This document shows, one piece after another, positions 36,952 to 47,359 of a stretch of 64,000 bases of DNA. The stretch lies in NCBI RefSeq assembly GCF_006539525.1, contig NZ_BJNE01000003.1:62001-126000 (forward strand), written 5' to 3'. The DNA comes from Glutamicibacter nicotianae (lineage in GTDB: Bacteria > Actinomycetota > Actinomycetes > Actinomycetales > Micrococcaceae). Position 1 is the stretch's first letter. Each line of letters begins with the position of its first letter. Both the position numbers and the translations under genes were made by a program. The notes beneath the pieces were generated by a model. It was given only the letters and a program-made list of their open reading frames with translations. It was not told the DNA's origin and made no database searches.

Positions 36952-37566
36952 ATGGCCTTTGACCTACCTACGGACCTCACCCCGGAACTTGTACCTTTCG
37001 CTTGGCTCATTGGCACCTGGGAAGGTGCCGGCCGTCTTGGCGAAGGCGAAGCCGAGGACGAGTACTTCTGGCAGCAAGTCATCTTCCGCGACCTTGGCGG
37101 CCCTTACCTTGAATACCGCAGCGAAGCCTGGCTGACAGAAGCCGATGGCACGAAGCTGCGCATCCTGGCGGTTGAATCCGGATTCTGGTCGCTGGACCGC
37201 GAACAGCAGGATGCCGATGCGGGTCCTGGCATGGTGCCGGGGGATATCTTCCCGGTATTGCGTTCGGCTGACGATGTGCAGAAGCTGCACACCGAGGACG
37301 GCTTCAAGATCCAGGCGCATATCGTCCGGCCTGATGGCATCTCAGAGCTGTATTACGGCCTGATTGATGGGCCGCGTATTCAGCTTGCCACCGAGAGCCT
37401 GCTGCGCAGCAAGAATGCCCAGGCTTACGCATCGTCCACTCGCATCTACGGTCTGGTCAATGGCGAGCTGTTCTGGCGCTGGGATGTCTCCAAGGGCAAT
37501 ATGGACCTCCAGGCGCACGCCTCCGCGGCGCTCAAGCGTGTCACGGCCGAAGGGACGGCGAACTGA
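36952..37566 (+). CDS. Nitrobindin-like heme-binding protein (FABP/THAP4 family, DUF1794)
   Basis: The 204-residue beta-barrel protein has the diagnostic GTWEGAGRL motif near residue 21 and a C-terminal histidine in MDLQAHASAALKR that in nitrobindins ligates heme. Family members bind NO or isomerise peroxynitrite. It ends 2 bases before ygfZ, with which it is probably cotranscribed. The pairing is common in actinobacteria. Confidence 0.85.
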   Translation: MAFDLPTDLTPELVPFAWLIGTWEGAGRLGEGEAEDEYFWQQVIFRDLGGPYLEYRSEAWLTEADGTKLRILAVESGFWSLDREQQDADAGPGMVPGDIFPVLRSADDVQKLHTEDGFKIQAHIVRPDGISELYYGLIDGPRIQLATESLLRSKNAQAYASSTRIYGLVNGELFWRWDVSKGNMDLQAHASAALKRVTAEGTAN

Positions 37567-37568
37567 TC

Positions 37569-38651
37569 ATGGCCGCTGGATACCGTTCAGTTCTGCTCGA
37601 TCGCGCTGGGGCTGTGGAAGCTGGCGGTGTTGATGCCGGTGTCGCAGCCCACTACGGCGCGCCGACCCGTGAAGCACGCAAGCTCGCCGAGGGCCAGGCA
37701 GTTGCCGATCTGAGCCACTTCGACGTTGTCGAGATCCGGGGCGAGGATCGGCAGAGCTGGCTCGATACGCTCAGCAGCCAGCGAATTTCCCATCTGAACC
37801 CAGGGGGCAGCACCCAGGCGCTGTTGCTTTCGGTCCAGGGTCGGATTGAGCACGAGATGAAGGTGCTCGCCGCCGAAGACCAATTGCTGCTGATTGTTGA
37901 ACCGGGCGCCGGGGCAGCGTTGGAGCAGTTCTTGAACTCGATGCGCTTCATGCTGCGCGTTGAGGTCAATGACCTTTCCTCCAGCTATGGCGTGCTGGCA
38001 GCTACCCGCAAGATCGGCACCGCTGGATCGCTGGTCTGGGAGAACCCATGGCCAGGCATTACCGAGGGCGGGTGGGCCTATTCCCGCGAAGACCACCCAG
38101 GCAAGGAACGTCCATGGTTCTTGCACATCGTGGAGCTGGAGAATCTGGCCGAAGCCGTAGGTGACGAAGAACTAGCCGGCATGATGGCTGTCGAAGCCTT
38201 GCGCATTGCCGCGTGGGAACCGCGTTTCGGCGCTGAGATCGACGACAAGACCATTCCCCACGAGCTGGACTGGCTGCGTACCTCGGTGCATTTGAACAAG
38301 GGCTGCTACAAGGGCCAGGAAACGATTGCCCGCGTGCACAACATTGGCCACCCGCCGCGCCGACTGGTGTTCTTGGACCTTGACGGTTCCATGCACACGT
38401 TGCCTGCCGCCGGCGCCAAAGTGAAGCTGGGAGAACGCACGGTAGGCCGGATTACTTCCGCGACCTTGCATTATGAAGCCGGGCCCATCGCCTTGGCCGT
38501 GGTCAAGCGCAACGTCGATCCGGAAGCGGAATTGGCCGTGATTGATGGTGAAACGAGCTATCCGGCGACGCAGGAAGTCATTGTGGCTACCGATGCCGGC
38601 CAGGTCGCTGGGCGCTTTACCGGGTTCCTGAGGACTCCGCCCCAAGGCTAG
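37569..38651 (+). CDS. ygfZ: YgfZ/GcvT-like folate-binding protein
   Basis: The 360-residue protein belongs to the YgfZ family, folate-dependent factors for maturation or repair of iron-sulfur enzymes. It contains the defining KGCYKGQE motif (about residues 249-256) with the essential cysteine. An N-terminal RSVLLDRAGAVEAGG extension is present. It differs from glycine cleavage T protein by this motif. It is followed by a hairpin. Confidence 0.88.
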   Translation: MAAGYRSVLLDRAGAVEAGGVDAGVAAHYGAPTREARKLAEGQAVADLSHFDVVEIRGEDRQSWLDTLSSQRISHLNPGGSTQALLLSVQGRIEHEMKVLAAEDQLLLIVEPGAGAALEQFLNSMRFMLRVEVNDLSSSYGVLAATRKIGTAGSLVWENPWPGITEGGWAYSREDHPGKERPWFLHIVELENLAEAVGDEELAGMMAVEALRIAAWEPRFGAEIDDKTIPHELDWLRTSVHLNKGCYKGQETIARVHNIGHPPRRLVFLDLDGSMHTLPAAGAKVKLGERTVGRITSATLHYEAGPIALAVVKRNVDPEAELAVIDGETSYPATQEVIVATDAGQVAGRFTGFLRTPPQG

Positions 38652-40008: not shown

Positions 40009-40251
40009 TTAGAATTTGCGCAGCCAGTTCTGCAAGATGATGGTGTTGTCCTGTGCCGGGATCAGGATCCACGCCAGAATATATGCGGCAATGCCCATGA
40101 CCGGGAGCAGGAACGAAAGCAGCAACGCAATGCGCACCAAGGTGACATCCCATCCGAACTTGTAGGCAATGCCTCCGGCGACGCCGCCGGCCAAGCGGCC
40201 TGGTCCGCGGCGAAGCGGCATGGAACGAAGCGAGTTGAAGAATGCGTCCAT
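40009..40251 (-). CDS. Short PspC domain protein, 80 aa
   Basis: The 80-residue protein is little more than one PspC domain: basic PLRRGPGRLAGGVAGGIAYKFGW followed by two helices (VRIALLLSFLLPVMGIAAYILAWILI). PspC domains sense membrane stress through interaction with partner proteins. It is the last gene of a minus-strand set of three next to the divergent kinase. Confidence 0.85.
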   Translation of the reverse strand: MDAFFNSLRSMPLRRGPGRLAGGVAGGIAYKFGWDVTLVRIALLLSFLLPVMGIAAYILAWILIPAQDNTIILQNWLRKF

Positions 40252-40286
40252 CAGATAACTCCTAATAGTTGGAAAAGCGTGGAAAC

Positions 40287-40535
40287 TTAGAGGTTGGGGT
40301 CCGTGGGCAGAGGTGGTTCAGCTGCGGATTTCCGGGCCTTGCCGGCCGCGGCCAGACCGGAGAAGATCATGGCAACACCAGCCAACGCGACGATGGTGAT
40401 GAAGAACAACGGCATGTCGAAACTCCATTGCAGAACCAGTCGGCTGAGCGATGCCAGGGCGACAACGATCATGATCAGCCCGAAGACCAAGGTTCCGGTA
40501 GGGAATTTTCTAGCTGGAGTGGAAGAAGAATTCAT
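40287..40535 (-). CDS. Hypothetical small membrane protein, 82 aa
   Basis: Two hydrophobic helices (about 13-34 and 41-64) between polar ends (MNSSSTPARKFPTG and KARKSAAEPPLP). Lies between two PspC genes in the same operon, with an AAGGACTG ribosome binding site. No known family; context suggests a role with the PspC proteins in the membrane. Confidence 0.7.
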   Translation of the reverse strand: MNSSSTPARKFPTGTLVFGLIMIVVALASLSRLVLQWSFDMPLFFITIVALAGVAMIFSGLAAAGKARKSAAEPPLPTDPNL

Positions 40536-40547
40536 GAAGCTCAGTCC

Positions 40548-41870
40548 TTAGAAATCCTTGTTGCTGGGGTTCAGGATGGTGGGAGTATCGACGCTGGTGG
40601 AGAAGGAGGAAAAAGCGCCGTCGACTTCAACGGTCAGCGTTGGTGCATCGCCGGGCAAGGTCCGCAGATCCTGAGGCAGCTCCAAGTCCATGCCGGATAG
40701 GAACGCGCCTTCGGTTTGTACCTTCACCGGAACATTCTCCGGCAGGAGCAGGTCCAGCTTGGAAAATACGGAGTCGATCTCTACCGTAGTGGGCTTGGTA
40801 ATCGTGCCCAAATGGGTCAGGTCTACCGTGGAGCTGCTGAATGCTGCACTGTACTGGCTGTCGTCTCCGGTTGCCGAGCGAACGAACCCGCGGGTTGAAT
40901 CACCGAAGGACGTTACAGAGAAGATCACCGTCAACACCAGCAGAGGAATTGCCAAGCCCAAGAGGCCTCCACTGGTGCGCCCGGAAAGCGCGGCCAGGAC
41001 GATGACGAGCCCAACCAGCAGCAGTCCGCAAGCCAAGGCCACCGTCCAGCCCGAACCAGGCAAAGCAACGATATCCAAGTAATCGGCCAGCATGACCACA
41101 GCGATCACCAGCACGGTGAGGCCGAAGACGGTCGTTCCAAGCCATCCCGGAATCGGGTGGATGATCGGCTTGCGATTCACCTTGGGGTTGTAGGCCTTGG
41201 TGTATGCAGGATCTGGTGAGTAGCTATTCTCGTGCTGGCGTATGGGGCCAGAATCATCTGAACTCATGGGGTGCTCCTTGGTTGGCGCATCTGGATTACC
41301 GGCCGCGAACCGGTTCGCCGCGCTTGCATTGAAACTCTGGGTGCCATCTCCACGCCATGGATGCTCCAGCGCCGTGGTCTTGCTGGCAGGCTTGGGCGAG
41401 GCGGCAGGACTGGTACCGGTTGGCGCCGTCTTTCGGGCCCCGTCCGGCCGCGCAAATCGGGTGTTTTTCCTGCTGAAGATGATGAATGCGATGGCCGCGA
41501 CAATTGCCACGGGCCACAAGATCGGTGCCAGCGAATCCAGGAACCAGGGAGCCGGGAAGATGCCAAACGCAAAGATGATGACTGCGCCGGTCATGCCGCT
41601 GGTCCAGTTGCGATTCACTGCACTTTCCAGATGCATCTTTCCAGCGGCATCAGGCAGCAATGCCCAAGCCAGACCGTAGAGCACCATGCCCAAGCCGCCG
41701 AGGACACCGAGCACCACGAAGATGCCGCGGATCAGGACCACATCGACCTTGAAATAATCGGCCACGCCAGTTGCGACGCCGCCGAGCCACTGCGAGTCCT
41801 GGCGGGTGACCGGTGATTTGCGCAGCTGTTCGTATATGCCGCGACGACGTTGAGACCCTTCGTTATTCAT
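40548..41870 (-). CDS. PspC-LiaF-like membrane protein
   Basis: The 440-residue protein has an N-terminal PspC domain (about residues 15-75), a long linker rich in alanine, proline and threonine, four or more membrane helices (about residues 230-320), and a beta-strand C-terminal region with the repeated 'VEVDGAFS' and 'VEIDSVFSKLDLLLPENVPV' patterns typical of LiaF-like cell-wall-active antibiotic response domains. LiaF-type proteins restrain a cognate kinase. It is divergent from just such a kinase. Confidence 0.85.
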   Translation of the reverse strand: MNNEGSQRRRGIYEQLRKSPVTRQDSQWLGGVATGVADYFKVDVVLIRGIFVVLGVLGGLGMVLYGLAWALLPDAAGKMHLESAVNRNWTSGMTGAVIIFAFGIFPAPWFLDSLAPILWPVAIVAAIAFIIFSRKNTRFARPDGARKTAPTGTSPAASPKPASKTTALEHPWRGDGTQSFNASAANRFAAGNPDAPTKEHPMSSDDSGPIRQHENSYSPDPAYTKAYNPKVNRKPIIHPIPGWLGTTVFGLTVLVIAVVMLADYLDIVALPGSGWTVALACGLLLVGLVIVLAALSGRTSGGLLGLAIPLLVLTVIFSVTSFGDSTRGFVRSATGDDSQYSAAFSSSTVDLTHLGTITKPTTVEIDSVFSKLDLLLPENVPVKVQTEGAFLSGMDLELPQDLRTLPGDAPTLTVEVDGAFSSFSTSVDTPTILNPSNKDF

Positions 41871-41996
41871 AGTTCAATGTTCTCGCGTTGCCGGGGTCCA
41901 GCGCTATGAGGGGATACCCTGAACTTCCCCTAGGGGTGCCCCTAGATCCGGTGATCAACCGCGAAGAATCGCCAAGAACGTGCTTGACTTAGAACC
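41871..41996. promoter_or_regulatory. Divergent regulatory region between the PspC cluster and the kinase
   Basis: A 126-base region that must hold promoters for both directions. CCCCTAGGGGTGCCCCTAG around 41931 contains two short palindromic CCCCTAG(G) elements. I cannot assign -10 boxes with confidence. Confidence 0.4.
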
Positions 41997-43250
41997 ATGG
42001 AAAGTCCTGAACGACGTTTGATGGTTCGCAGCGAAAACCGGCTCGTTGCTGGTGTCTGCGGCGGCCTCGCGGAGCATCTGAATCTGCCGCTGAAGTACGT
42101 CCGGCTGGGGTTTCTGGGACTGTCCGTTTTAGGCGGCGTCGGCATACTGCTCTATGCCTGGCTCTGGGTATTCGTCCCGAGCGCAGAAGAAGCGCACGCG
42201 GACGAGCTCCGCTCCTGGGGCACCAGGTCTCGCAGCCTTGCTGAAGAGATGAACCGAGTGCAGCAAGGCATTTTCCGGCCACGCGAAGGGTGGGAAAGGA
42301 ACTCCACCTGGCGTGACACGCTAATCGGTGCGGGTTTGCTGGCGCTCGCCGTCCTGGCCTTCGGGCAATGGACCGGCTGGAATATCCGCTGGGATCTGAT
42401 CTGGCCTTCCTTGTCCATTATTGCTGGCATTGTGCTGGCCTGGATCCAATTCGATGAGGGAATCACCGAGGGCAGGAAACGTCTGGCACTGCCGTTGCTG
42501 CTGCGCTTGGCCTTTGGGCTGGTCCTGGTTATCGGCGGGCTGCTGGCCTTGCTGGGAAACATTGTCGGTGCCGCGGACCTGCTCGGCGGCCTGTGGGCGG
42601 CTTTGGCGATTATCGTCGGCGCGACCGTTGTCTTGCTTCCTTGGGGCACCCGGCTATGGCGGGATTTCATCGCTGAACGAAGCTCTCGGCAGGCTGCGGC
42701 CCAACGAGCCGAGTTCGCCGCTCACCTGCATGATTCGGTTTTGCAAACCTTGGCGGTGATTCAAAAACGCAGTGAAGACCCGGCTGCGGTGAGGACCCTG
42801 GCACGTGTCCAGGAACGTGAACTGCGCCAATGGCTGTATGGCAACCACGACCTTGATGACGAAGACGTCATCGTTGAGATCCAGCACGAGGCAAGCCACA
42901 TTGAACAGTTGCTCTTGCGCGATGTTGAAGTCGTTTCGGTAGGCAATGCGCAGGGCTTTGCCGGACAGCAGGCACTGGTGGCCGCTAGCCGCGAGGCCAT
43001 GATGAACGCGGCCAAGCATGCTGATGGCAAGATTTCAGTTTTCATCGAATGCTCGGCCGCGCAAGTAGAAGTGTATGTGCGCGACCGCGGCACCGGTTTT
43101 GACATCGAAGGAATACCGGCGGATCGTCACGGCATCAGGGAATCAATCATTGGCCGCATGGAACGCGCAGGCGGCACGGCACAGATCCGCAGCGGCGCAT
43201 CCGGAACTGAAGTGCAGCTGAGCATGCCATTGGACATGGAGGAAGAATAG
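41997..43250 (+). CDS. PspC-domain sensor histidine kinase
   Basis: The 417-residue kinase starts with a PspC domain (residues 1-60), then helices at about residues 105-125, 130-145, 165-185 and 190-215, a NarL-type dimerisation/phosphoacceptor motif HLHDSVLQTL (His245), and a HATPase domain with EAMMNAAKHAD and DRGTGFD. The combination is the LiaS/PspC-type envelope stress kinase. It is coupled 4 bases from its response regulator. Confidence 0.9.
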   Translation: MESPERRLMVRSENRLVAGVCGGLAEHLNLPLKYVRLGFLGLSVLGGVGILLYAWLWVFVPSAEEAHADELRSWGTRSRSLAEEMNRVQQGIFRPREGWERNSTWRDTLIGAGLLALAVLAFGQWTGWNIRWDLIWPSLSIIAGIVLAWIQFDEGITEGRKRLALPLLLRLAFGLVLVIGGLLALLGNIVGAADLLGGLWAALAIIVGATVVLLPWGTRLWRDFIAERSSRQAAAQRAEFAAHLHDSVLQTLAVIQKRSEDPAAVRTLARVQERELRQWLYGNHDLDDEDVIVEIQHEASHIEQLLLRDVEVVSVGNAQGFAGQQALVAASREAMMNAAKHADGKISVFIECSAAQVEVYVRDRGTGFDIEGIPADRHGIRESIIGRMERAGGTAQIRSGASGTEVQLSMPLDMEEE

Positions 43251-43254
43251 GAAT

Positions 43255-43923
43255 ATGAGCGCAGAAAACGCCTCCGGGCTGTACCGAGTAGTGCTGGTGG
43301 ATGACCATGCCATCTTCCGCTCCGGATTACGTGCCGATTTGGCCCAGGATATCGAGATTGTCGGCGAAGCCGGCACCGTGGAAGACGCCATTGAGGTGAT
43401 CAGCGCGCAGCAGCCGGATGTGGTGCTATTGGACGTGCATCTGCCCGGCGGCCGCGGCGGCGGCGGGGCCGAAGTGCTCAAGGGCTGCACCGGGCTGCTG
43501 GGATCAACGCGCTTTCTGGCATTGAGCGTTTCCGACGCGGCGCAGGACGTCGTGACGGTTATTCGTTCCGGTGCCCGCGGGTACGTCACCAAGAGCATTT
43601 CCGGGGCGGAGATTTCTGATGCGGTGCGGCGCGTGGCCGGGGGAGATGCCGTGTTCTCGCCACGCTTGGCAGGGTTCGTCTTGGACGCCTTTGGCAGCAG
43701 CGCGCCGGTGGCGGAAATTGATGAAGAACTCGATCTGCTGTCCGACCGCGAATTGCAGGTCATGCGGCTGATCGCCCGCGGATACAGCTATAAGGAAGTT
43801 GCCAAGGAGCTGTTCATCTCAGTGAAGACCGTGGAATCCCATGTCTCAAATGTGCTGCGCAAACTCCAGCTATCAAACCGGCATGAGCTCACCCGTTGGG
43901 CCGTTGACCGCAAGATCCTCTGA
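43255..43923 (+). CDS. NarL/LuxR-type response regulator
   Basis: The 222-residue protein has a receiver domain with the acidic pair at residues 16-17 and the phosphorylated aspartate at 60 (VVLLDVHLPGG), and a GerE-type helix-turn-helix at about residues 155-215 (YSYKEVAKELFISVKTVESHVSNVLRK). The receiver carries an unusual glycine stretch (GGRGGGGAEVL). It partners the PspC kinase. The likely target is the divergent PspC cluster. Confidence 0.92.
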   Translation: MSAENASGLYRVVLVDDHAIFRSGLRADLAQDIEIVGEAGTVEDAIEVISAQQPDVVLLDVHLPGGRGGGGAEVLKGCTGLLGSTRFLALSVSDAAQDVVTVIRSGARGYVTKSISGAEISDAVRRVAGGDAVFSPRLAGFVLDAFGSSAPVAEIDEELDLLSDRELQVMRLIARGYSYKEVAKELFISVKTVESHVSNVLRKLQLSNRHELTRWAVDRKIL

Positions 43924-45472: not shown

Positions 45473-45544
45473 GGGTAGTGGCGCAATTGGTAGCGCAGCG
45501 GTCTCCAAAACCGCAGGTTGCAGGTTCGAGTCCTGTCTGCCCTG
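45473..45544 (+). tRNA. tRNA-Trp (CCA)
   Basis: Acceptor AGGGTAG pairs with CTGCCCT (one G-U), anticodon loop CTCCAAA, T arm GGTTCGAGTCC, discriminator G. It immediately precedes secE, as in most actinobacteria. Confidence 0.95.
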
Positions 45545-45658
45545 CGCAATAGCGATTTATCGCTTAGCGAATTATCTCATCACGGTGTGTTGCAGTCGAA
45601 TAGACTATGGCACACCGTGATTGTTTCAACTGGCCAAATTTTTGAAACGAGGAAGAAC

Positions 45659-45907
45659 ATGACCGAATCTGCTCTCAGCTCCGGTAAGGGTGGACAGAAG
45701 TTGGGTTTCTTTGCCCGGATCTTCTTGTTTTTCCGTCAGGTAATCGCAGAACTTAAAAAGGTCGTCACCCCGACCCGCAGCGAACTGGTGAATTACTTCC
45801 TGGTTGTTGTCGGTTTCGTAGTCGTGGTGATGCTGATCGTGACGGCCCTGGACTTCGTCTTCGGGCAGGGGTCGATCCTCCTGTTCACCAACAAGGTAGA
45901 ACAGTAA
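45659..45907 (+). CDS. secE: Preprotein translocase subunit SecE
   Basis: The 82-residue protein has the conserved amphipathic helix FRQVIAELKKVVTPTRSELVNY and one membrane helix. It joins SecY and SecG in the translocon. The ATG at 45659 follows a GAGGAAGAAC ribosome binding site; the open frame runs back through the tRNA, which was rejected. Confidence 0.92.
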   Translation: MTESALSSGKGGQKLGFFARIFLFFRQVIAELKKVVTPTRSELVNYFLVVVGFVVVVMLIVTALDFVFGQGSILLFTNKVEQ

Positions 45908-45979
45908 TTTTTTTGCCTCGGCGGTATGATTACCCCGAGGCAATTTAGTGTCATTCAGTCAAAGAAAGCAGGAGCTGCA

Positions 45980-46798
45980 GTGTCCGACAAGGAACTCGAA
46001 CCGCAGATTAATGACGAGGTCGATAACGAGTTCGTTGAAGCCGCCGGCGATCAGGTAGAGCCAGCTGTTGAAGCTGGCATCGACCCAACCGAAGCACCAG
46101 CACAGGACGCTGAAGACGCTCAGGTTTCCGAAGGCGCAGCTGAAGAAGCTGAAGGCGACGACAACGAAGCCGAAGCTGAAGACAACGTAGCAAAGCTCAA
46201 GGAAGAATTCCGCGCTAAGCTCCGTCGCCTTCCGGGTGACTGGTTTGTGATCCACACCTACGCTGGCTATGAAAACCGCGTGAAGGTCAACCTCGAGACC
46301 CGTATCCAGACCCAGGACATGGATGAGTACATCTTTGACATCCAGGTTCCAATGGAAGAGGTCGTTGAGGTCAAGAACACCCAACGCAAGATCGTTCGTC
46401 GCGTGCGCATTCCGGGCTACGTCCTGGTTCGCATGGAACTGACCGACGCTTCGTGGGGTGTTGTTCGCCACACTCCAGGTGTCACCGGATTCGTTGGCAA
46501 CGCCCACGATCCAAACCCATTGAACCTTGATGAAGTGTTCTCCATGCTGGAGCACACCATCGTTGATCCGGTAGAGCAGCCGTCGGCTTCGAAGCCAGGC
46601 CGTGCTCCAATTACTGAGGTCACGGTTGATTTCGAAGTTGGCGAATCGGTCATCGTGAACGACGGACCGTTCGAGACGATGCCGGCAACCATCTCGGAAA
46701 TCAAGCTGGATGCCGCTCAGCTGGTCGTGCTGGTTTCGATCTTCGAACGCGAAACCCCAGTGACCCTGAACTTCAACCAGGTCACCAAGATCCAGTAG
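45980..46798 (+). CDS. nusG: Transcription termination/antitermination factor NusG
   Basis: The 272-residue protein has an unusual, highly acidic N-terminal extension of about 80 residues (rich in Glu, Asp and Ala), then an NGN domain beginning at [21 protein letters not shown] and a C-terminal KOW domain with [13 protein letters not shown]. NusG binds RNA polymerase and coordinates elongation with Rho and the ribosome. The GTG at 45980 has AGGAGC upstream. The long acidic extension is typical of actinobacteria but not of E. coli. Confidence 0.93.
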
Positions 46799-46809
46799 TA
46801 TTAAGTCTT

Positions 46810-46872
46810 CGTGCTCCATATCGGTCGCTTATCGATGTGAGAGCACGGTTGGCTGTCGCGCCACGACAGCCA
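46810..46872 (+). promoter_or_regulatory. Two tandem hairpins in the rplK leader
   Basis: The first stem is CGTGCTC-CATATCG pairing with CGATGTG-(A)-GAGCACG (46810-46847). The second is TGGCTGTCG pairing with CGACAGCCA (46850-46872). Both lie between nusG and rplK. They could end nusG transcripts or form an L1-binding leader; there is no T run. Confidence 0.5.
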
Positions 46873-46927
46873 GATCCCCGTACCACGCTCCTGTGCTGCG
46901 GGAAACGCAAGAGTAGAAGGACCCGAC

Positions 46928-47359
46928 ATGGCCCCAAAGAAAAAGGTCACCGGACTCATCAAGCTGCAGATCCAGGCAGGTGCTGCTAACCCAGCTCCTC
47001 CAATCGGTCCAGCCCTTGGTCAGCACGGCGTCAACATCATGGAATTCTGCAAGGCTTACAACGCAGCGACCGAGTCGCAGCGCGGTAACGTGATTCCAGT
47101 TGAAATCACCGTATACGAAGACCGTTCGTTCACTTTCATCACCAAGACTCCGCCTGCAGCTGAGCTGATCAAGAAGGCCGCTGGCATCGCCAAGGGCTCG
47201 GGTGTCCCGCACACCAACAAGGTCGCCAACCTGACCCAGGCACAGGTCGAGGAAATCGCCAACTCCAAGATGGCTGACCTGAACGCCAACGATCTGGCTG
47301 CTGCAGCCAAGATCATCGCCGGCACCGCCCGCTCCATGGGTGTGACCGTAGAAGGCTAA
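46928..47359 (+). CDS. rplK: 50S ribosomal protein L11
   Basis: The 143-residue protein has the proline-rich [21 protein letters not shown] start and the usual C-terminal rRNA-binding domain with [11 protein letters not shown]. It binds the GTPase-associated 23S region and is needed for RelA activation. It has a good ribosome binding site (AGAAGG) and lies in the L11-L1 operon. Confidence 0.95.

Follow-up and report, generated by a model that had tools for sequence, protein, structure and literature searches.

Three PspC domains in one actinobacterial divergon: a probable EsrISR-type envelope-stress system with a candidate phased operator array

What do three PspC domains do together in one divergent locus? 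The locus in question lies in a 64,000-nucleotide stretch of Glutamicibacter nicotianae DNA (assembly GCF_006539525.1, contig NZ_BJNE01000003.1, positions 62,001 to 126,000; the whole stretch is called the window), where the genes of a bare PspC protein, a small two-helix membrane protein and a PspC-LiaF protein diverge from those of a PspC sensor histidine kinase and a LuxR-type response regulator (Table 1). Very probably, the locus encodes a three-component envelope-stress system of the EsrISR/LiaFSR type, in which a membrane brake would release the kinase, a phased array of half-sites would control the divergon and the bare PspC protein would be an output. The system is not new in kind; it is of the EsrISR type, for which inhibition by EsrI and autoregulation are already published. 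Additions over the published accounts are a widely conserved array, a small hairpin-like partner and a bare PspC protein able to outlive the rest of the system.

The starting point is the gene content. The PspC domains score 61.2 bits in the bare PspC protein, 60.4 in the PspC-LiaF protein and 61.9 in the kinase (Pfam cut-off 25), and a search of the whole 3.55 Mb genome returns these three and none besides. A sequence-only reading of the window had placed three PspC domains in one divergent locus; the five open reading frames are confirmed in place, with about 60 bits for each domain. Exactly three PspC domains per genome are found in 18/18 genus genomes, the window's own counted. The order PFK, bare PspC, two-helix protein, PspC-LiaF, kinase and regulator is kept in all 17 of the other genus loci, and the aminotransferase gene (AAT) follows the regulator in 16 of them, the last locus (L043) stopping at a contig edge. 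Median identities of the 17 genus orthologues to the window are 87% for the regulator, 83% for the bare PspC protein, 75% for the kinase, 66% for the two-helix protein and 54% for the PspC-LiaF protein. PspA is not encoded at the locus (contig C3), the two PspA_IM30 genes of the genome being on C2 and C29.

In the kinase, a PspC domain (residues 9–62) is followed by a membrane bundle, an HLHD box (243–246) and an ATPase domain (HATPase_c, 28.6 bits; Pfam cut-off 26.4). An alignment of eight kinases shows no variation at the HLHD box, Q250, N337, D363, G365 and G367. The regulator gene lies directly 3′ of the kinase gene; its product matches Response_reg (60.6 bits) and GerE (73.2 bits) in Pfam and retains D60 together with the acidic pair D16–D17. 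Membership of the MacS/MadR group was considered and rejected, the best NCBIfam scores (76/300 bits for the kinase, 159/300 for the regulator) being far under cut-off. No Shine-Dalgarno sequence is visible ahead of the kinase ATG, and the kinase mRNA is therefore probably leaderless, with the conserved TGCTTGACTTAGAACC element as its probable core promoter. At 41981–41999, a genus-conserved TGCTTGACTTAGAAC word ends one or two bases 5′ of the kinase ATG, and TGYTTGGATNNNNCATG-like words are found in other families. Matches to the kinase profile (E up to 1e-30) occur in 186 of 296 class genomes, many of them covering the kinase part only. In a survey of Corynebacterium's family, 29 of 31 genera have some kinase match; in the large genus g47 (4.4–6.2 Mb), probably Mycobacterium, at least ten genomes are without a kinase match at 1e-20 and two have weak matches only.

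The putative brake consists of an N-terminal PspC domain, membrane helices, a long linker, a membrane bundle and a C-terminal beta domain. LiaF-like_C reaches 18.9 bits in the window protein, under the Pfam cut-off of 29; in the homologue alignment, 28 of 40 sequences match it with E values of up to 0.1, the best being 3.4e-11. The predicted structure of the protein is modest (mean pLDDT 62.8, pTM 0.44; pLDDT under 70 at 293 of the 440 residues), and its use is therefore confined to the C-terminal beta domain (residues 331–430, pLDDT 68–91 in blocks). The best structural match of this domain is 4qrk (Foldseek E 0.011; Z 8.2 over 102 residues at 2.7 Å), against a Z of about 3.5 for the next rows; a Z near 8 is close to what unrelated folds can attain and may reflect no more than a common arrangement. 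By sequence, 4qrk matches the profile of the PspC-LiaF alignment with an E of 1.6e-8. The layout around the kinase varies in distant loci. In L218, L223, L224 and L228 (Thermoleophilia-type: Patulibacter, Solirubrobacteraceae, Conexibacter) the PspC-LiaF gene is co-directional and before the kinase gene, not divergent. In L212:4959–5340, L219:4908–5277 and L225:4871–5159, which come from metagenome-assembled genomes (MAGs), two of Streptosporangiaceae and one of Actinobacteria, the gene divergent from the kinase gene apparently encodes just a short PspC protein lacking the LiaF part.

The small two-helix protein is a conserved neighbour in the locus. A similar open reading frame follows PspC-LiaF in 19 of 26 order-level loci, and some of the others have a longer two-helix frame. 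The protein had been read as of unknown family. Neither PF18917 nor PF22570 is listed in the Pfam scan of the window protein, and of six relatives scanned, two have sub-threshold matches to LiaI-LiaF-like_TM1 or LiaF-TM (best 17/27 bits). By profile comparison, however, its kind is not wholly unknown. A two-helix profile matches the PspC-LiaF alignment with an hhalign probability of 95.5 and an E of 5e-9, and the kinase with 64.6 and 8e-6, on an aligned stretch that takes in a low-complexity linker, without an unrelated-hairpin control, and where composition may inflate the score. This suggests a detached LiaI-LiaF-TM-like hairpin, in the sense of a protein related to the LiaF membrane hairpin only. 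Identification as a holin or as SecE was rejected, both giving sub-threshold matches only.

The candidate control element lies in the divergent region. Two CCCCTAG(G) words had been put forward as possible operators by the sequence-only reading. A conserved element is indeed found in this region; the CCCCTAG words (41927–41933(4) and 41939–41945) both vary across the genus, the second being lost in several members, and are, by alignment, only degenerate outer copies of a phased array. The predicted array has the form ATCRGGG-like, CCCTGA, N5, CCCTGA, with a phase of about 11 bp, upstream of the brake gene. Over 18 aligned genus intergenic regions the invariant block is CGCTATGAGG..-N-T.CCCTGA, ending at 41922, which places half-site 2 at 46 bp from the PspC-LiaF start codon and at 80 bp from the kinase start. 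Half-site 1 may instead be part of the brake promoter. In the whole genome CCCTGA-N5-CCCTRR occurs once, at the divergon (reversed control 0). In the window and 15 close relatives the second copy is CCCTAG or similar, with two mismatches in 15 of the 16 and three in one; tested singly by shuffling, these loci match weakly (p 0.010 to 0.265), and the case in this clade therefore rests on the alignment. At up to one mismatch, GAGGGGNTACCCTGA is found at 21 places in the genus vs 12 control matches, namely 17 divergons (17/18 genomes) and four extra places (two in G007, one in G017 and one in G006), so that nothing in the genus stands out beyond the divergon. Two further ideas were rejected. One is that of a wider regulon in this genome: CCCTGA-N5-CCCTRR has no second site, and the best match near either PspA gene has three or four mismatches. 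The 6-4-6 palindrome TSAGGGNNNNCCCTSA, considered as operator, occurs at two places in the genome and is not the form common to other families.

That common form, in the other families of the order, is CCCTGA-N5-CCCTGA. Its distribution was followed over 176 loci (41 order-level with the window, 40 of the class, 15 of Corynebacterium's family and 80 named loci among the matches listed). A motif frequency matrix was drawn from 51 of the 176, picked for carrying the site; it describes the motif and tests nothing. Within the 300 bases before the kinase, the exact form is present in 18 of the 41 order-level loci, and in 21 when one mismatch is allowed; in L072 an exact site lies slightly outside this stretch. 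Measured to the start codon that a script chose for PspC-LiaF, the best array match is 45–47 bp away in 27 of the 41. The class search covers 40 loci, five of which belong to the window's order; an exact copy is present somewhere in the locus in 14 of the 40 and a copy with one mismatch in 12.

Over 80 divergon loci (739,591 bases) there are 38 exact copies in 34 loci; the reversed and complement motifs, spacers of 4 and 10 and an inverted N5 pair give 0, a spacer of 6 gives 3 and a spacer of 7 gives 2. With one mismatch allowed, copies rise to 68 in 49 loci, against 0 for the reversed and complement motifs, 3, 13, 10 and 4 for spacers of 4, 6, 7 and 10, and 12 for the inverted N5 pair. In 58 whole genomes ACCCTGA-N5-CCCTGA has 22 matches vs 1 control match, 12 of the 22 being in divergons by position. 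Among the 80 named loci listed, an exact N5 copy is found in at least eight: five Bifidobacterium, one Bifidobacteriaceae MAG, Galliscardovia and one Actinomycetota MAG. For the 15 loci of Corynebacterium's family, the exact pair occurs at N6 or N7 in three and with one mismatch in two. In L137, where kinase and brake lie apart, an exact copy is located beside the brake gene, and a reverse copy with one mismatch lies close to where the kinase frame starts. Across the class, many relatives, though not all, have the candidate array in their divergent region.

The array also bears on the role of the bare PspC protein. Of 24 candidate PspC genes that stand alone, apart from the brake operon, 21 were scanned (G029:C14, G045 and G018 left out). 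Five have the array upstream at zero or one mismatch and two at two mismatches; the complement control is never under three. In two of the five (G039, G049) the distance to the kinase gene is at most about 5 kb; the other three are on other contigs. Sorted by genome, the array at zero or one mismatch is found at 5 of 15 stand-alone PspC genes from 12 kinase-bearing genomes vs 0 of 6 from genomes without an orthologous kinase. In the window's family, five genomes without an orthologous kinase, regulator or brake (G025, G027, G028, G030 and G035) have the bare PspC gene beside AAT. Three of them (G027, G030 and G035) show the full order AAT, bare PspC, PFK, GCV_T-type gene, which looks like an excision of the remaining four. 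Loss, not later insertion, is the favoured direction because the system is widely spread. In G018, G022 and G045 the bare PspC gene is kept elsewhere.

The name 'putative stress responsive transcriptional regulator' is the old COG name of PspC. A member of the Corynebacterium glutamicum Esr regulon, cg1325, is annotated in these words (PMC6975037), and a PspC-domain gene is up in a peptide-producing strain (PMC9969654). Since some separate PspC genes carry the array and five genomes keep the bare PspC gene without kinase, regulator and brake, the evidence favours the bare PspC protein as an output of the system rather than a sensing contact; a second, sensory role is possible too. More tentatively, a single ancient phased operator (ATCRGGG / CCCTGA / CCCTGA), distributed over much of the class, might define an actinobacterial PspC regulon with the bare PspC protein as main output. 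PspC-LiaF, the hairpin protein and the kinase would then form a losable control unit, and the bare PspC protein would stay as a membrane-stabilising effector without adjacent PspA.

The three PspC domains could also touch each other, with the kinase sensing via PspC–PspC contacts, as the sequence-only reading proposed, and the bare PspC protein as sensory partner. The presence of three PspC domains in each of the 18 genus genomes, their clustering in the 17 other loci and a published proposal of PspC as sensor domain (PMC11237479) are in line with such contacts. The five same-family genomes that keep the bare PspC gene beside AAT, three of them with PFK on the other side, argue in the opposite direction, as do genomes in which the only PspC genes are those of kinase and brake (e.g. 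G038, G051 and G053). Contact-based sensing is rather unlikely. For the bare PspC protein, a sensing role is probably wrong or incomplete: being kept without an orthologous kinase in five genomes, it need not be part of sensing.

With the bare PspC protein as output, a brake-release mechanism can be proposed. It starts from what is observed here, that is gene content, gene order, domains, a conserved array at its usual distance to the brake gene and a bare PspC gene kept without kinase. Inhibition by EsrI, induction by bacitracin and vancomycin, and autoregulation are taken from the C. glutamicum publications. What we infer is that the regulator binds the array, in which direction it acts, that the brake genes form an operon and that the bare PspC protein is an output. 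In unstressed cells, the PspC-LiaF protein would hold the membrane-embedded PspC kinase in its inactive state. On disturbance of the envelope or of the lipid II cycle, the brake would release the kinase, which would phosphorylate the LuxR-type regulator. The phosphorylated regulator may then bind the phased half-sites of the divergent region and switch on the PspC-LiaF / two-helix / bare PspC operon, possibly the kinase genes too. Expression of the operon would restore the brake and yield the bare PspC protein as a membrane-acting output.

The direction of control could be the reverse, with the regulator repressing the brake operon and the array overlapping and blocking its promoter. The 45–47 bp between array and brake start codon, where a promoter may be overlapped, and the repression of nlpC by EsrISR during envelope stress (PMC9960051) fit this possibility; the esrI mRNA, up 2.31-fold in one protein-secreting C. 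glutamicum strain and at 0.80 in a second (PMC6975037 Table 1), speaks against it in the first strain. Repression of the brake operon is improbable, and its activation by the regulator is retained. Just as improbable is a reading in which the half-sites serve a different regulator or form part of a sigma-factor promoter: a promoter element might be seen in the outer CNAT word, but a phasing of about 11 bp and the inverted ATCGGGG-N4-CCCTGAT form suit dimeric LuxR-type regulators, and the array accompanies stand-alone PspC genes in kinase-bearing genomes only (5/15 against 0/6).

Several observations weigh against a system controlled as proposed. Within one mismatch, 14 of the 40 class loci are without the array, as are 10 of the 15 loci of Corynebacterium's family with spacers 4–7 allowed, and in the clade of the window half-site 3 is degenerate. 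Of the 22 sites found genome-wide, ten order-level ones are not in a divergon, and for nine of these no common target is clear; the ten comprise one stand-alone PspC gene and a few with ABC-transporter neighbours by eye, and make no consistent set. The C. glutamicum EsrISR regulon is broad, whereas in this genome only the divergon site, one strong site, is found. The divided response of esrI in the two secreting strains belongs here too, and the C. glutamicum locus is not among the 80 named loci listed. Because C. glutamicum is not among the matches listed, orthology with Cg0706–0709 relies on published domain tables and on other Corynebacterium.

The general idea of an envelope-stress system with a LiaF-like brake and autoregulation agrees, by analogy, with published EsrISR biology (PMC7283102, PMC11237479); it is right but already in print. 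In C. glutamicum the system is already well characterised. The conserved array would provide a defined DNA target for many actinobacteria, Bifidobacterium included, and the retention of the bare PspC gene leads to a simple genetic test of the role of PspC without PspA encoded beside it. EsrR binding sites are mentioned in PMC9960051, where no motif is printed in the part of the text consulted, and a published motif is possible; should this operator be on record for EsrR, what is gained is knowledge of how widely it is distributed, not its discovery.

Beyond the divergon, Pfam identifies a THAP4-like heme-binding gene and a GCV_T-type folate-binding gene on the far side of PFK (36952–38651), the latter holding its position in relatives. 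Beyond the aminotransferase gene (45518–47359), open reading frames resemble secE, nusG and rplK by eye.

Table 1. Coordinates in the window of the genes of the divergon and of predicted elements in its divergent region
Feature	Position	Strand	Basis or remark
Bare PspC protein, 80 amino acids	40009..40251	-	PF04024, 61.2 bits; last gene of presumed brake operon
Two-helix membrane protein, 82 amino acids, LiaI-LiaF-TM-like hairpin (suggested)	40287..40535	-	Hydrophobic stretches, profile comparison
PspC-LiaF protein, 440 amino acids, EsrI-like putative brake	40548..41870	-	Pfam, alignment, predicted structure
Predicted half-site 1, ATGAGGG (ATCRGGG-like in other families), inverted vs next	41906..41912	+	Alignment, chosen-loci matrix
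Predicted half-site 2, CCCTGA	41917..41922	+	Identical in 18/18 aligned genus sequences
Predicted half-site 3, CCCTAG (CCCTGA in many other genera)	41928..41933	+	Within first CCCCTAG(G)
Possible fourth copy, CCCCTAG, weakly conserved	41939..41945	+	Missing from several genus members
Conserved element TGCTTGACTTAGAACC just before kinase ATG	41981..41996	+	Genus alignment
PspC sensor histidine kinase, 417 amino acids, EsrS-like	41997..43250	+	Pfam, aligned residues
NarL/LuxR-type response regulator, 222 amino acids, EsrR-like	43255..43923	+	Pfam; presumed phospho-acceptor D60

The closest known relative is EsrISR of C. glutamicum. There, EsrI (Cg0706) inhibits EsrSR in the absence of stress, and the direct targets of EsrISR are its own locus, heat-shock genes and ABC transporters (PMC7283102); inducers are bacitracin and vancomycin (PMC6975037). 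The kinase CgtS7/Cg0707 has 423 amino acids, with PspC at 47–107, five membrane helices, HisKA_3 and HATPase_c, and CgtR7/Cg0709 is a LuxR-type regulator of 230 amino acids (PMC3353115). PspC is the input module of this kinase and of many actinobacterial kinases (PMC9239133). EsrISR and the system of the window have in common a PspC kinase, a LuxR-type regulator and a PspC-type integral membrane protein, an inhibitor in EsrISR and a putative one here; kinase and regulator agree in domain order and are of similar length. The divergent layout also occurs in named Corynebacterium loci among the matches listed. The two differ in that the presumed brake operon of the window adds the LiaI-LiaF-TM-like hairpin protein and the bare PspC protein, and in that its array has an extra direct copy: at least 21 of 50 listed Corynebacterium records show an ATC[AG]GGG / CCC-GA inverted pair in the divergent region, by a pattern set after inspection and without control. 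An actinobacterial Lia-like system without PspA (mSystems 2024, PMC11237479) resembles the divergon in that its kinase carries PspC and LiaI-LiaF-TM as fused parts, its regulator is of the REC-HTH type and its promoter region is common with a divergent PspC gene, in some cases bearing Toastrack; the section of that paper on the system leaves the array, the small hairpin gene and the fate of the bare PspC unmentioned. LiaFSR of Bacillus subtilis is more distant, since LiaS has a HAMP domain and no PspC, and liaIHGFSR includes the PspA homologue LiaH (PMC11237479); its likeness to the divergon lies in the partnership of a LiaF-type inhibitor, a kinase and a response regulator that answers envelope damage (PMC7191749).

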